This document shows positions 40,411 to 53,362 of a DNA stretch of 64,000 bases, piece after piece; position 1 is the stretch's first letter, and the number at the start of each line of letters is the position of its first letter. Under the pieces are notes generated by a model. That model saw nothing but the letters and a program-made list of their open reading frames with translations. It was not told the DNA's origin and ran no database searches. A program made the position numbers and the translations under genes. Origin of the DNA: a bacterium (GTDB lineage Bacteria; Bdellovibrionota_C; UBA2361; RFPC01); contig JAUIBK010000020.1 in assembly GCA_030428205.1 (NCBI GenBank), positions 1 to 64,000 of the forward strand, read 5' to 3'.

Positions 40411-40575
40411 GCTGTAGACAGACGAAAGTTTGTGGCAGCGAGGCGAAAGTCTTGAATCTCGCATAGTCCCTGTTGACTCAGTTGCTCGCCGGATTGAGTT
40501 TTGTTTTGGTGCCATCGAGAGAGCTTCGTGGTATATGAAACCTTAAGCTATATCAGCAAACTGCATGAGGTGCTT

Positions 40576-41796
40576 ATGACTTTGATACGGCGGATAAGAA
40601 GAGCCGTTCTTTTTACACTTCTTTTCCTTATCTCTCTCCCTTTTGCCATAGCACAGTCTTGCAATCCAGGAACCTCTAGCGAAACAGGTTCAGTACCATG
40701 CACAGACTGTGAGATAGGAACATTTCAACCTTCCATTGGTCAAACGTCTTGTCTTGCATGTGAAGCTGGAACTTTTCAGGAGAATATTGGAGCTATTGCA
40801 TGCAACGATTGTCCAGCTGGCTTTGGATCGCTCCAAGGTTCATCCTCTTGTACCCAGTGTGCAGCAGGTGAGTATGTTCCAGCCGAAGGAGGTGCGTGTA
40901 CTGACTGTCCTGCTGGAAAGTACACAAATGTTGTCGGTCAAACGGCTTGCTTCGATTGCCCCGCTGGTGAAGGCTCTGAAGAAGGAGGAACCTTTTGCGC
41001 AGCCTGCCCAGCTGGAACTGCGTCTCAGGAAGGAACAGGGTGTCAGGACTGTGAGGCGGGTTCATTCACTTCAACATTTGGGCAAACAGCTTGTCTCAAC
41101 TGTGAGGCTGGTAGTGGTTCTGAAGCTGGAGACACTTCTTGTTCGCTGTGCGAAGTCGGTTATTTTTCTGCGTCAGCTGGTGATGCATGCACAGCGTGCC
41201 CTACTGGAAGCTATTCGACAGAAACTGGTTCAACGAGCTGCACAGAGTGCTCCCTTCCCTATGTAAGCTTCACTGGTGGCACAAGTTACTGCCAACGCTG
41301 TAAAAGGCTTAAGAAGCTTAAACTCGTAGTGCAAGATGTAGAGAATCAAGAGACCCAAAGAGTTACGTTTAAAGGACACTTTTTTACAAGCAGGAGCCAG
41401 TATTCGGATTTTACACCAAACTCTACAGGGTTTTCAGTGCTTTTCTACGATAGTGATGGAAATCAAGTTCTCGACCTTTCTCTTCCAGGCGAAGATAATG
41501 ATGGGGAGTGGATAGTAAAGAACTCTAAGAAGTTCAAACGCTTTACGTTTGTTCCCCAAGAGTCTTCGGTCGTCAGTAGGTTTTTTGTAAAAGCAAGAAA
41601 ACCCGCGAAAGGAGCAAAGTCAAAGGTAACAATGACTCTGATTCTCAACGATAGCCTTTCCTTAACCTCTGAGACGTCTTTTTCATCTTTTGCTATAAGC
41701 TATGGTACTGATGAGGGTTCCTTGTGTGCGTATAGGAGACTCAAGACAAAGAGCTGTAAGTATAGTCAAAAGAAAGACAGAACACGGTGTAAGTAA
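40576..41796 (+). CDS. secreted protein with 13 cysteine-rich (ephrin-receptor/TNFR-like) repeats
   Basis: 406 aa from the ATG at 40576 (start of a clear signal peptide, 1-28, FAIAQS). About 13 CxxC pairs at a ~17-residue period (CLACEAGTFQENIGAIACND type) match the GCC2/GCC3 or ephrin-receptor-like repeat of eukaryotic secreted proteins. The C-terminal ~170 residues are a basic beta-rich domain with a terminal Cys/Lys motif (CKYSQKKDRTRCK). Likely a disulfide-rich adhesin or surface protein. The sco gene starts 8 nt after its stop, so it may be co-transcribed with the oxidase genes. Function unknown. Confidence 0.75.
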   Translation: MTLIRRIRRAVLFTLLFLISLPFAIAQSCNPGTSSETGSVPCTDCEIGTFQPSIGQTSCLACEAGTFQENIGAIACNDCPAGFGSLQGSSSCTQCAAGEYVPAEGGACTDCPAGKYTNVVGQTACFDCPAGEGSEEGGTFCAACPAGTASQEGTGCQDCEAGSFTSTFGQTACLNCEAGSGSEAGDTSCSLCEVGYFSASAGDACTACPTGSYSTETGSTSCTECSLPYVSFTGGTSYCQRCKRLKKLKLVVQDVENQETQRVTFKGHFFTSRSQYSDFTPNSTGFSVLFYDSDGNQVLDLSLPGEDNDGEWIVKNSKKFKRFTFVPQESSVVSRFFVKARKPAKGAKSKVTMTLILNDSLSLTSETSFSSFAISYGTDEGSLCAYRRLKTKSCKYSQKKDRTRCK

Positions 41797-48486: not shown

Positions 48487-50553
48487 ATGGAATTTCAACC
48501 TGAAGCTAACTTTAATAAAGGGCCAGAAGTCGAGATTACTCGTATGCGCCCCCTACCTGCGAGAGAGCTTGCTCTGGCACTTGGACGTGCTGCAGAGCAA
48601 GCTGGAGCTCGCCTAGATGGAATAAGCTCTCTTTACTCCTCAGATGGTATGCTCCGCCGTATTCCAGAGCTTGAAGAGCTTCAGTCCCTCTTTGCTGTAG
48701 GAAAACTCATTCGAGATCTTGACGAGGAAATGGGCTCTTGGCCTAACTCACCTCAGACGGCGAATGAAACTACGGAGCTGTTTCAAGGGCTTCGGTATTT
48801 ATTGAGTGGAGACCCTTCGATAAATTTTGGGCAACTCTGCCAGGGAGGTCGTGTTGTTGCTGATTTCGCCGAGGAGCTACCAACATTCTACGAGCAGCTT
48901 CCTCAAGATCCCTTTAGAGAGAAAGCACTGTCGTACATCCAGGCTGCGAACAAGGCAGCTACTGAGCTCTCAGAGGTCACTCAAGAGTCTTTTGGTGCTC
49001 TTGCGAGATTCCTTCTGGTCCGTATGAGGGCTTGCCGTGTTCCGGATTATCTCTCTCCATATTCAGATCGAGATGTTGATGCTATTGCGGTTTCTACTGA
49101 GCTCATAAAGAGCTGGCTTTCCGAGGAACAAAGAGTGGAGGAGGCGGGAGGTCTCTCTCAAGGAGAGTTCAAGGCTTTGCTTCAGTCCGGGATCGAACAG
49201 TATCGAAGAGATGTTTATCCCAATCTTTCATATCGTGGCCAAGTTGGTCGAGAGAGCGAAGGAGTTCTTCTCTCTGCTACAGATTCGTTCATTATCGCAC
49301 GCATTGCGCGAGATGCCATTACGGCATCTGGAGAAGAAGGAGTTGTGCCGGAATTGGGAGCGGGTCAGTACGAACTCAACTTTCCTGTGCAAACTCTCGG
49401 AGGTAGGGTTTTCTCTGATTGGTTAGATTTTGAAGAGAGAAAGCTTGCTGCTGTAGAAAAAGCCGCCCAGGAGTTCTGTCGAGGAGTCATACCTGTTCCT
49501 ATAGCAATTGCTCCTACCTTAACTCGAGAAGATCTCCAACGGGTTGCGCTTGGAGATGGTGAGAGATGGGACCGTTTGGATGCCGCGTGGCAGCGTGCTT
49601 TGTTTGAAGAGATTAAGCGTAGCGGGAAGCTTCCGATGATTGATGGATATGTGCCTGAAAGCATCGCAGTGTCCTCTTCAATGTCCTCTTCGCAGCTTCA
49701 CGTTGAGCTACCGTTTGATGAGAGGGAAGCTGCTAAAGTATTTAATGCTTGTGTTCTTGCGACCATTCCAGTGTTAGCTGCCTCTGGAGCGTCCCCCTTC
49801 TTTCTTGAAGGACGAGAGGGGACTTCAGAGGTTCGTCCCCAAATATGGGAGAAGCTTGACGATCTCGGTCGAAAACGAGTGTTTTTTGGGGATGGATGGA
49901 TAGAGTCTCCGTTTGAAATTCTTGAAAAATACGCAGAAGTAGAAAGACTCGATCTTAAGCAAGATGAGAATGAGGATCCGCTCACGCTTCTACGAAGGCA
50001 AGTTGATAGTGTTTGGCCACACTTTCGACTTATTCCGGAAGCCGATCACTGGAGATGTGAAAATCGGGTCTTTTCGTCGGAGGCGCCTCTCGATGCGATT
50101 GCTACTTCTGCATTTTACTTTGGCCTTGTGCGAGGTCTTTCTCAAGAAATGGAAGCTAAAGACTTAGCCGCATCGGTTCCTTTTGAGAGTGTGAAAGAAG
50201 CTTTCTACGGTGTCTGTGAGAATGGACTCGACCAAGATGTTCCATGGATTGGGGTTGGGACTATCAATGCTCAAGAACTGATTCTCGACAAGCTTTTGCC
50301 GCTTGCTCGCAAAGGCTTACTTGATTCAGGAGTCCTCCTCGATGAGGTGGAAACCTTTCTTGGTGTTGTTGAAGAACGGGTCAAATCTGGTCGTACGAAC
50401 GCTCAGTGGCAAAAGTGTGCATTTGCATTAGCTGAGGCAAAAACTGTGGAAGAGAAAATGAGTGAAGTTGCTCAGCGATATGCCATAGGAGTACTCAGCG
50501 GATTGCCAACTGCCCAGTGGTCTGAGTGGAGAGAGGAAAGAAGCCTCAGATAG
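48487..50553 (+). CDS. glutamate-cysteine-ligase-like (GCS2) carboxylate-amine ligase
   Basis: 688 aa, much longer than usual GCS2 proteins (~370-400). The N terminus has KGPEVEI (11-17), like the GxExE start of GCS2. The C-terminal half carries the other marks: SQLHVEL (402-408) for GxHVHV, AASGASPFFLEGREGTSEVRP for the SxSPFxxGxxTGxxSxR block, and DHWRCENRVFSSEAPLDAI for the ExR block. A ~250-residue helical insertion separates them. GCS2 enzymes join an amine to a carboxylate using ATP, e.g. gamma-glutamylcysteine. Missing second His in LHVEL suggests a different substrate. With the next two genes it may form a peptide or amide tag module (inference). Confidence 0.6.
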   Translation: MEFQPEANFNKGPEVEITRMRPLPARELALALGRAAEQAGARLDGISSLYSSDGMLRRIPELEELQSLFAVGKLIRDLDEEMGSWPNSPQTANETTELFQGLRYLLSGDPSINFGQLCQGGRVVADFAEELPTFYEQLPQDPFREKALSYIQAANKAATELSEVTQESFGALARFLLVRMRACRVPDYLSPYSDRDVDAIAVSTELIKSWLSEEQRVEEAGGLSQGEFKALLQSGIEQYRRDVYPNLSYRGQVGRESEGVLLSATDSFIIARIARDAITASGEEGVVPELGAGQYELNFPVQTLGGRVFSDWLDFEERKLAAVEKAAQEFCRGVIPVPIAIAPTLTREDLQRVALGDGERWDRLDAAWQRALFEEIKRSGKLPMIDGYVPESIAVSSSMSSSQLHVELPFDEREAAKVFNACVLATIPVLAASGASPFFLEGREGTSEVRPQIWEKLDDLGRKRVFFGDGWIESPFEILEKYAEVERLDLKQDENEDPLTLLRRQVDSVWPHFRLIPEADHWRCENRVFSSEAPLDAIATSAFYFGLVRGLSQEMEAKDLAASVPFESVKEAFYGVCENGLDQDVPWIGVGTINAQELILDKLLPLARKGLLDSGVLLDEVETFLGVVEERVKSGRTNAQWQKCAFALAEAKTVEEKMSEVAQRYAIGVLSGLPTAQWSEWREERSLR

Positions 50554-50603
50554 AGCTCTTTCGACGATTCTTTAACGGTATTGAGTATTTATACTGACCT
50601 ACT

Positions 50604-50701
50604 CCGCCCCTCCTACGCTAAAGCTACGAAGCGTCTTCGACAAGGCTATGTTTCCCTATAGTGGAAAGCTTGCCCTCCGTAGCTTCAGCGAAGAAGGGGG
50701 G
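50604..50701. repeat. palindromic repeat between GCS2-like and CYTH genes
   Basis: CCGCCCCTCCTACGCTAAAG then CTACG (50604-50628) pairs imperfectly with CGTAGCTTCAGCGAAGAAGG then GGGG (50678-50701). The interior holds further short inverted parts. Similar sequences are common intergenic palindromes in many bacteria, in my memory. The rest of the 309-bp gap shows no gene. Confidence 0.6.
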
Positions 50702-50862
50702 ATACAGCGCAAGTGCACTTTCATATGCCCGGCATCTTGTGATCATAGTCCATCCTGGAGAGCATTATGAGGTGCGCCTGGTTTAACTGATTCTTAACTT
50801 GAAGAAATTGCATCTTACCGCAGAAGATAAACGGAGAAGAACTTCTGCAGGTAGGCTTATTC

Positions 50863-51759
50863 ATGGGTGTAGAATCAAAAATTGAGAGGATCCGGCTTCC
50901 AAAAGGCGAAGCACCTCCATTTTCCCTTGAAGCCCTAAATGCTCTCGAGCATCCCGGAGCAAGCTTGGCGCAATCCGATTCTCTGGAGCAACACGCTGAT
51001 TTTGAACACGAGCTAGAACGTGAGCGTCACTATTTTCTCCCACGAACTGTACTTGAAAACCTTGTTCCTCTCGAGCAACTTCGCTCAACCTTCATTTCTC
51101 AAAGTTACTTTCCAAAGACGTTTGCCAAAGGCGCTTGGGCGATGGTTGCCATGACTCATAGCGATGTAGCACTTGATGGAACAGCAGAGATTACCCAAGC
51201 AAGACTGAGGAGCTCAATCAGTAGTGAAGGTGTGACCTCCTATGAATTCACTCTCAAATATAAGGAGACTGACGCAGGGCCAAGTGAGAGACAAGAGCTC
51301 ACCATTTCTCTTACCCAAGAGATGTATAACGAGCTTCTTCCCTTTGCTACTAACGGAACGGTAGAAAAAAAGCGGTATTTTCTCGAAGTTCCTGTGGGAG
51401 TCCTCTCAGGGTTTTCACTCGGAACGAACTCTGCCGGTTTGCGAGGAAGCGTAACCCTTGAAATCGATCTTCCTCTTTCTTGTGAAACAGATGGCAACAC
51501 TTATAGTCTTCGTCCATTCGATGTTGCGCTGATTGATGTTGAATGTCCTTCTGAGGCTCTCATGGACGCTCTTCGAGATGGTGAGCATGATGTTGCTCTC
51601 CTTCATTCTTGTATCGATATTTCAAGTGATTGCGCTTCAACACACCACTTGCGTAAACCTCTGAGTTGGAAAGAGATAGCAAAGTCTGGTTTTAAAAAGA
51701 AAGCGCAAAAGAGTGTTCAAGCTCTCGCAGATCTCCACCGCAGACGAGTGGCGGCCTAA
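50863..51759 (+). CDS. CYTH-like domain protein
   Basis: 298 aa. ERERHYFLP (52-60) fits the ExExK-like first strand of the CYTH triphosphate tunnel; QSYFP is the QGYL equivalent; then ARLRSSI (RxR), YEFTLKYKET, RQELTISL, KKRYFLEVP, VTLEIDLPLS (EIDxF) and DVALIDVECPSEA follow in the right order. CYTH enzymes hydrolyse or use triphosphates, or bind anionic substrates, with a metal. One His replaces the third charge in the first motif. The ATG lies 309 bp downstream of the GCS2-like gene; AstE-type gene is convergent 40 nt away. Function inferred from fold only. Confidence 0.6.
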   Translation: MGVESKIERIRLPKGEAPPFSLEALNALEHPGASLAQSDSLEQHADFEHELERERHYFLPRTVLENLVPLEQLRSTFISQSYFPKTFAKGAWAMVAMTHSDVALDGTAEITQARLRSSISSEGVTSYEFTLKYKETDAGPSERQELTISLTQEMYNELLPFATNGTVEKKRYFLEVPVGVLSGFSLGTNSAGLRGSVTLEIDLPLSCETDGNTYSLRPFDVALIDVECPSEALMDALRDGEHDVALLHSCIDISSDCASTHHLRKPLSWKEIAKSGFKKKAQKSVQALADLHRRRVAA

Positions 51760-51799
51760 GGTTTTTTGGGGAGCAGGATACTCGTCTTGCTCTGAAATC

Positions 51800-52789
51800 T
51801 TATGACAAAGCTCGAACATACGGGCGCTCAGAGAGAAACATGACTTCCTCTTTAATCGAGAGCACCCTCATTTCTTTCGGTGCAAAGTGAGCACAACCGT
51901 CCAGAGGCGAAACGATCTCTCCCTGATCACCTTGCGCAAGTACTTCGTCCTTTGATATCTCGCAAAAATTTGGAAAGTCACGTGCTAGTTTATAGGACTC
52001 ATCAGGAAACCAGAGGGTATCTACCATGCGGTAGACATCAAACTCTGAAGGTTCTTTTGATTGCTCAAGAGCAACCATCTCCATATTCACAAGTGTCTGG
52101 AGAGCAGATTCAATGGCTATCCGTAAAGAGCTTTCTTCTTCATGCCCACCGGACTCAACCTCAAAGACAGGAATGTCCCGGTCATGACCGCCGAAGAAAG
52201 TGCAAGCTGGTAGACCAAGCTGTACTTTCTCTACCTCTGTTAACACCTTTCGAAATGGCATATGGCCCATAAGGGTGTGAGCTGTTTCACTCATAGCAAG
52301 GCCGAGCGGATCGGCGTTTTGAGAGGTGGTGTGAAAATCAATAACCGCATCGGCTTGCTCGTGAACGGGCCGGAGCTCTTGCATTCGCCCAAATTCGTAC
52401 TCTTTTGGGTTTGAAAAAGAATACACATCTTCTGGCATCCGGTTCATGTTGTAATCAACAACACGGCAGAGGTCACGCTCATCATCGGAAGAAGCTTCAA
52501 AGTAGCGCTTTGCGGCTTCAAGATTGTTTGCGATAAAGAGCACCCGTCCTTTGAGAAGAGAGTGCTCCAGCCAATCGTCTTTGAGGAAATACCACAGAGG
52601 AGCTAGGCCGCTCGGTTCGTTTCCATGTACGAGGCAAGAGATTGCAAGGGTTGGGCCGGGCGTAGAGGCTTTATACTCATAAGCCCCACATACTCCCTTG
52701 ACCTTTGAATGCGCAAGGAGCTCAAACGTTTTTTTGAGATCTTCTTTTGTTGGGAGAGAGAGATTCTGTGGTGTAAGAGCGAGACGCAT
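51800..52789 (-). CDS. succinylglutamate desuccinylase/aspartoacylase-family metallopeptidase
   Basis: 329 aa, M14-like AstE/AspA family. The zinc ligands are seen as HGNEPSG (His55, Glu58) and VIDFHTTS (His153), with the catalytic Glu in PVFEVESGGH. The C-terminal beta domain (VLAQGDQGEIVSPLDGCAHFAPKE) is typical. Such enzymes cleave an acyl group from an amino acid or peptide amide. Lying convergent to CYTH and GCS2-like genes it could remove what the ligase adds. Substrate unknown. ATG at 52789 has a poor RBS. Confidence 0.8.
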   Translation of the reverse strand: MRLALTPQNLSLPTKEDLKKTFELLAHSKVKGVCGAYEYKASTPGPTLAISCLVHGNEPSGLAPLWYFLKDDWLEHSLLKGRVLFIANNLEAAKRYFEASSDDERDLCRVVDYNMNRMPEDVYSFSNPKEYEFGRMQELRPVHEQADAVIDFHTTSQNADPLGLAMSETAHTLMGHMPFRKVLTEVEKVQLGLPACTFFGGHDRDIPVFEVESGGHEEESSLRIAIESALQTLVNMEMVALEQSKEPSEFDVYRMVDTLWFPDESYKLARDFPNFCEISKDEVLAQGDQGEIVSPLDGCAHFAPKEMRVLSIKEEVMFLSERPYVRALS

Positions 52790-52870
52790 ACTGAAAGCCT
52801 ACATTACGAGTGGAACCTCTTATGATTGCTTGTGTGTGATGAGATTGCAAGAATACAAAATGGAGAGGCG

Positions 52871-52994
52871 GAGGCTGATACCAAGAATAAGACCAAGGCC
52901 AAGATATAGACTAAGACTAAGGATAAGAAAAAGAGCCTCTTAGTTTTTGTGCACCTCTCGGCCTTCGCCTTGGTCTTATTCTTGGCCTCAGCCT
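52871..52994. repeat. hexamer-phased palindrome R7
   Basis: GAGGCTGATACCAAGAATAA then GACCAAGGCCAAG (52871-52903) pairs with CTTCGCCTTGGTCTTATTCT then TGGCCTCAGCC (52963-52993) with a few mismatches. The long loop (52904-52962) has a run of CTAAGACTAAGGATAAG-type units. It fills most of the 294-bp gap before the YerC gene. Its unit sequence differs from the CGCGAAG family, but the hexamer rhythm is the same. Confidence 0.6.
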
Positions 52995-53083
52995 ACGAAA
53001 GCAACTGAATCAATCACCCGATATCCTGAAAGTATGAGATTTGATTTGACCCGCAAGAACAAGATCCGCTACCGTCCTCTCAT

Positions 53084-53362
53084 ATGAGTTTATGGCGAAA
53101 AAAGGAGCTTCAAGAGCTCGCGCGTGTCTTTCTCCTCCTAGAGACTGAAGAAGAGTCGAGAGCTTTTCTGCGTGACATCCTTACAGAAACTGAGCTTGTT
53201 GAGCTGAGCAAGAGGTGGAGAGCCGCTCGCATGCTTGACGAAGGCAAGCCTTATACGACCATTGTTCGTGATACAGGGCTAAGCTCTACCACCGTGGCTC
53301 GGATTTCAAAGTGGATGCAAGAAGGAGAAGGAGGGTATAGAATCCTACTCGACCGCCTTTAA
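53084..53362 (+). CDS. TrpR/YerC/YecD-family regulator
   Basis: 92 aa, all-helical. LRDILTETELVELSKRWRAARMLDEGKPYTTIVRDTG then LSSTTVARISKWMQ matches the TrpR-like helix-turn-helix core used by YerC/YecD, where the DNA-binding helix is TGLSSTTVARI. No tryptophan-biosynthesis gene is near. The GTG of the GT-C-like gene begins 11 nt after its stop, so it may be co-transcribed with it. Ligand, if any, unknown. Confidence 0.85.
   Translation: MSLWRKKELQELARVFLLLETEEESRAFLRDILTETELVELSKRWRAARMLDEGKPYTTIVRDTGLSSTTVARISKWMQEGEGGYRILLDRL

Follow-up and report, generated by a model that had tools for sequence, protein, structure and literature searches.

A divergent GCS2-family ligase gene next to CYTH and AstE-type genes, and a recurrent GCS2–AstE gene pair in other bacteria

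The window, by which we mean the whole 64,000-nucleotide stretch that we analysed, lies on contig C66 of a 3.76-Mb genome assembled in 81 contigs, from an uncultured Bdellovibrio-type bacterium, and it was compared with 46 genomes of its small phylum. The initial annotation had described a GCS2-type ligase gene, a CYTH gene, and a convergent AstE-like gene, in that order, and had proposed that together they could make up an amide-tagging, dipeptide, or osmolyte pathway. We recovered all three open reading frames (688, 298, and 329 aa) in this order and at the same coordinates. The features of the locus are as follows.

48487–50553, plus strand: GCS2-family carboxylate–amine ligase, 688 aa (PF04107, invariant residues, fold match)
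48487–49221, plus strand: orphan N-terminal extension of the ligase, approximately residues 1–245 (no relative; absent from CBS-GCS2, that is, GCS2 proteins with CBS domains; low pLDDT)
50554–50862, no strand: gap of 309 bp between the GCS2 and CYTH genes, with two inverted copies of a 23-bp repeat
50863–51759, plus strand: divergent CYTH (triphosphate tunnel) protein, 298 aa, with a C-terminal helical extension (family alignment, Pfam CYTH in relatives, homologues in polyphosphate clusters)
51800–52789, minus strand: M14 AstE/AspA-type zinc amidase, 329 aa (PF24827 and motifs; stop codon at 51800–51802)
52869–52997, no strand: inverted repeat of 35 bp (89%) in the space that separates the AstE and TrpR-like genes
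53084–53362, plus strand: YerC/YecD TrpR-related regulator, a neighbour outside any claimed system (TIGR02531, PF01371)

Upstream of the trio lie genes for a YfcE-type phosphodiesterase and a weakly PH-like protein. Downstream, the YerC/YecD gene (TIGR02531 66.3 bits against a cut-off of 42.2; PF01371 60.9 bits), which is oriented divergently from the AstE gene, is followed by a gene for a protein of no known family. What we take to be cox genes upstream and putative thiamine genes downstream were both named by reading the sequence. Just 5' of the cox genes, positions 40501–41796 encode a predicted protein of 431 aa that carries six cysteine-rich repeats (Ephrin_rec_like/TNFR-like), an animal-like type in a bacterial genome. 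Within the trio, the length of the gap between the GCS2 and CYTH genes and the inverted repeat copies in it (50609–50631 and 50675–50697) disfavour tight co-transcription of the two. The inverted-repeat elements at 50609–50697 and 52869–52997 flank the CYTH and AstE genes and are possibly small mobile or REP-like elements; the intergenic inverted repeats of the window gave no Rfam match.

The product of 48487–50553 is a divergent, fast-evolved GS-fold carboxylate–amine ligase whose conserved residues are complete, and its assignment to the GCS2 type stands. The PF04107 score (21.3 bits) is 0.3 bits above the curated cut-off of 21. In an alignment of the window protein with 25 relatives from named genomes (26 rows), G254, E256, E258, E289, E296, N298, R360, S401, Q403, H405, E448, R450, R523, E525, and R527 are invariant. 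The GhExE signature common to GCS2 and Pup ligases (PMC2588565) reads G254-R-E256-S-E258 here, with arginine rather than a hydrophobic residue at the "h" position. A structure model built with the 26-row alignment has its catalytic GS-fold domain at approximately residues 250 to 680; from residue 250 onward, pLDDT exceeds 90 at most positions and is lower at about 360–380 and 450–520. The model matched YbdK (1r8g/1tt4) with TM scores of 0.75–0.79 depending on the target, and also plant (2gwc among the top) and E. coli glutamate–cysteine ligases, with PafA and Dop ranking after these. The window protein has the GS-type fold and the GxExE, QxH, and R-x-E-x-R positions in common with the GCS2/YbdK-type ligases (PF04107), but it differs from them in the 245-residue orphan extension, in the arginine within GhExE, and in falling below every NCBIfam subfamily (no match to the YbdK, EgtA, or GshA subfamilies at E ≤ 1). 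Identity to any relative is approximately 26–33%, a contig scan with the window protein alone as the query gave no match, and the GCS2 tree could not place the ligase, whose branch is 3.45 changes per site long. Judged from these residues, the enzyme would use ATP to phosphorylate a carboxylate, most likely the γ-carboxylate of glutamate, and then join it to an amine, with catalysis expected to use the metal-binding E256 and E258 together with conserved arginine, glutamine, and histidine residues.

Alignment to relatives changed two details of the earlier description. The reported insert of approximately 250 residues is a genuine extra segment (approximately 245 residues), but it is an N-terminal extension rather than an insert: G254-R-E-S-E258 aligns with GAEQE of the relatives, and residues 1 to approximately 245 precede the first catalytic strand. 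What had been read as an altered LHVEL motif is an ordinary, unaltered Q-x-H motif, in which S401, Q403, and H405 are invariant among 26 homologues. The extension is predicted to be helical at low confidence (pLDDT mostly below 60). A search of 57 other genomes gave no relative of it, and it is missing from the CBS-GCS2 relatives. It may set the choice of partner or substrate.

For the CYTH protein, the profile evidence lies in the family: the window protein has no Pfam match of its own at E ≤ 1, and two of the 11 relatives in its family, A1, reach PF01928 (best E 3.6e-4). The A1 profile found PDB entries 2fbl and 3typ, which we take to be CYTH-type, at E 0.14–0.15, below significance. The tunnel positions (ExE, RxR, K, R, D, DxE) are invariant in the A1 relatives from the phylum, corresponding to E52, E54, R114, R116, K132, E145, R171, D202, D225, and E227, and we retain the CYTH assignment on the strength of the family-level similarity and these residues. 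The protein thus resembles triphosphate tunnel proteins in its tunnel residues and weak profile matches, and differs from them in being too divergent for a Pfam match of its own and in its C-terminal helical tail. A single-sequence structure model (pLDDT 39) was unusable for fold comparison. In two related genomes (G034 and G037), the homologue is flanked by PPK1 and PPK2, and genes for Ppx/GppA and a SixA-type phosphatase adjoin them; the polyphosphate clusters of CYTH, PPK1, PPK2, Ppx/GppA, and SixA-type phosphatase are at loci L043 and L044. In several f11 genomes, which have no GCS2 at all, the homologue adjoins other genes; in G002, CYTH is likewise present and GCS2 absent. Because its homologues adjoin polyphosphate genes, the window protein is best read as a putative polyphosphate or triphosphate protein, either a triphosphate-tunnel enzyme or a polyphosphate-binding protein of polyphosphate metabolism, and as a probable bystander at this locus.

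The amidase assignment, to the AstE/aspartoacylase-like M14 proteins, was upheld. The protein scores 36.7 bits against PF24827 (cut-off 25), and its metal and substrate motifs are complete (HGNE, NMNR, DFHTT, and E212 conserved). Profile searches place both the ligase and the amidase in the families proposed. The catalytic domain and these motifs are what the protein shares with AstE (succinylglutamate desuccinylase) and aspartoacylase; it is neither of these proper, since its NCBIfam scores of 19–34 bits are far from the equivalog and subfamily cut-offs of 170–306 (TIGR03242 19.6/305.65, NF002601 18.9/180, and NF003706 33.5/170 bits). In the AstE tree, it groups with proteins of G029, G034, G037, G003, and G005 (support 100/99). 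Members of this clade adjoin genes of aromatic amino acid synthesis: in G034 and G037, the AstE gene forms a same-strand run with the genes for RidA and PheA (chorismate mutase/prephenate dehydratase), and DAHP synthase adjoins it in G005 and lies one gene away in G003. These neighbourhoods suggest N-acyl aromatic amino acids as the substrates, in which case the predicted zinc amidase would remove the acyl group from an N-acyl aromatic amino acid. The divergent TrpR-related gene fits this aromatic reading weakly. Window-clade homologues by PheA and RidA or by DAHP synthase (L054, L055, L057, and L250) suggest a step in aromatic amino acid metabolism.

We found that AstE and GCS2 genes are regular neighbours elsewhere. 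Among 40 planctomycete loci, picked for contig room and mostly from the best-scoring ones, AstE lies directly downstream of CBS-GCS2 on the same strand in 38, and the other two are without AstE. The planctomycete loci with a CBS-domain GCS2 gene and then an AstE-type M14 amidase gene come from the series L210–L249, plus L089 and L107. CBS-GCS2 is present in 104 of 151 genomes of the class of one planctomycete, G097; in this genome and in G098, also a planctomycete, the sole AstE-like gene is the GCS2-linked one. The planctomycete pair has no third constant partner, the other recurring ORF clusters being antisense shadows or confined to at most 11 of the 40 loci. In a broader set of 80 GCS2 contigs, drawn from named genomes of many phyla, AstE is immediately downstream of GCS2 in 10 (Gammaproteobacteria, Nannocystineae, Helicobacteraceae, and Planctomycetota) and in none of the actinobacterial contigs. 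Four gammaproteobacterial loci (L130, L144, L127, and L165) have the order AmgK–MurU–GCS2–AstE, with AmgK and MurU checked by profile in L130 only; these two are genes of peptidoglycan-sugar recycling. The idea that an amide maker and an amide breaker belong together is supported in general; in the window, the AstE gene is convergent with GCS2, is separated from it by the CYTH gene, and groups with another clade. Relative to the planctomycete module, the window has the same two families close together, but it has no CBS domains in the ligase and no co-directional arrangement.

No neighbourhood outside the window was found to contain all three genes. CYTH is near GCS2 in none of the 80 contigs from many phyla, at none of the 40 planctomycete CBS-GCS2 loci, and in no shared neighbourhood within the 46 genomes of the phylum. 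A 334-aa protein encoded between AstE and GCS2 in G001, of the same family as the source organism, was considered and is not recognisably CYTH. Because CYTH and GCS2 are never neighbours elsewhere in the genomes surveyed, the layout is gapped and convergent, and the AstE protein groups with the other clade, we think that the three genes are probably just neighbours that act independently of one another rather than as one pathway. A dedicated three-gene route to an amide tag, dipeptide, or osmolyte has adjacency in the window in its favour; the survey largely refutes it, the ties of CYTH to polyphosphate genes point elsewhere, and nothing was found in support of a protein-tagging or osmolyte function, which leaves it very improbable. 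Little more can be said for the window ligase being the organism's glutathione-type glutamate–cysteine ligase. The GCS2 family and fold agree with such a role, but the protein matches no NCBIfam model, its very long branch is that of one among five GCS2 paralogues in the genome (on C66, C40, C73, C37, and C5, the one on C73 being followed by an M20 peptidase gene), and a genome search gave no clear GshB, the best match to a GSH-synthetase domain (62.7 bits) being in a RimK-like gene. We regard this role as improbable.

Closer to the data is a reading in which the window GCS2 and AstE genes descend from the conserved module through rearrangement and divergence, with CYTH between them by chance; the ligase would then make a γ-glutamyl or similar amide and the amidase would hydrolyse the same or a related bond. 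The planctomycete, gammaproteobacterial, Nannocystineae, and Helicobacteraceae pairs argue for it, as do the sole AstE genes of G097 and G098. Placing the window AstE inside the GCS2-linked clade, moreover, is not rejected by the AU test (p = 0.068; the branch is long). On contig C421 of G001, two GCS2 genes have an AstE gene of the GCS2-linked clade close by, on the strand opposite to theirs; with the strong family linkage elsewhere, this case suggests that the closeness of GCS2 and AstE in the window may not be chance. By our rough estimate, a random GCS2–AstE pair within two genes of each other has a probability of ~2%, given five GCS2 and three AstE-like genes. Against descent stand the opposite strands and intervening CYTH gene, the grouping of the window AstE with the clade that is not GCS2-linked, the source genome's own member of the GCS2-linked clade, which lies elsewhere (C46), and the CBS-GCS2 genes of G003 and G005, of the window's family, which have no adjoining AstE. 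We consider descent from the module possible but doubtful. The window holds diverged representatives of both families whose pairing is a real module in other bacteria, and the locus is at most a scrambled relative of that module.

GS-fold amide ligase genes adjoining genes for amide-cleaving enzymes have been described before (Iyer et al. 2008, PMC2588565); there the linked gene encodes a thiol peptidase or an Aig2-type γ-glutamyl cyclotransferase, whereas here it encodes an M14 zinc amidase, and neither "M14" nor "aspartoacylase" occurs in the main text of that paper. We found no description of the GCS2–AstE pair in the literature searched, and an earlier description is possible. Iyer et al. 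2009, on amidoligases, reportedly surveys such gene neighbourhoods. As a speculative proposal, which we hold to be rather unlikely as a whole, GCS2 and AstE may form an undescribed, widespread "put on/take off" amide module, in which the ligase would cap amines, using glutamate or some other carboxylate, and the zinc amidase would take off this cap or an acyl group related to it; the module would be under CBS (nucleotide-sensing) control in Planctomycetota and lie beside amgK–murU in Gammaproteobacteria, with the window as a diverged version carrying a new N-terminal domain. Taken alone, the window is a mixed neighbourhood whose GCS2 ligase is highly diverged; the useful result of following it up is the module, a unit of two genes that is strongly conserved in most of the Planctomycetota sampled and in several Proteobacteria. 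Such an amide-forming and amide-cleaving pair, with no third constant partner, lends itself to a direct test with the two proteins in purified form and may represent a new small-molecule or cell-wall step. Two genera of the window's family encode a divergent GCS2 protein of approximately 900 aa paired with a protein of approximately 340 aa of no known family (L083:7004–11013 and L022:8292–12302).
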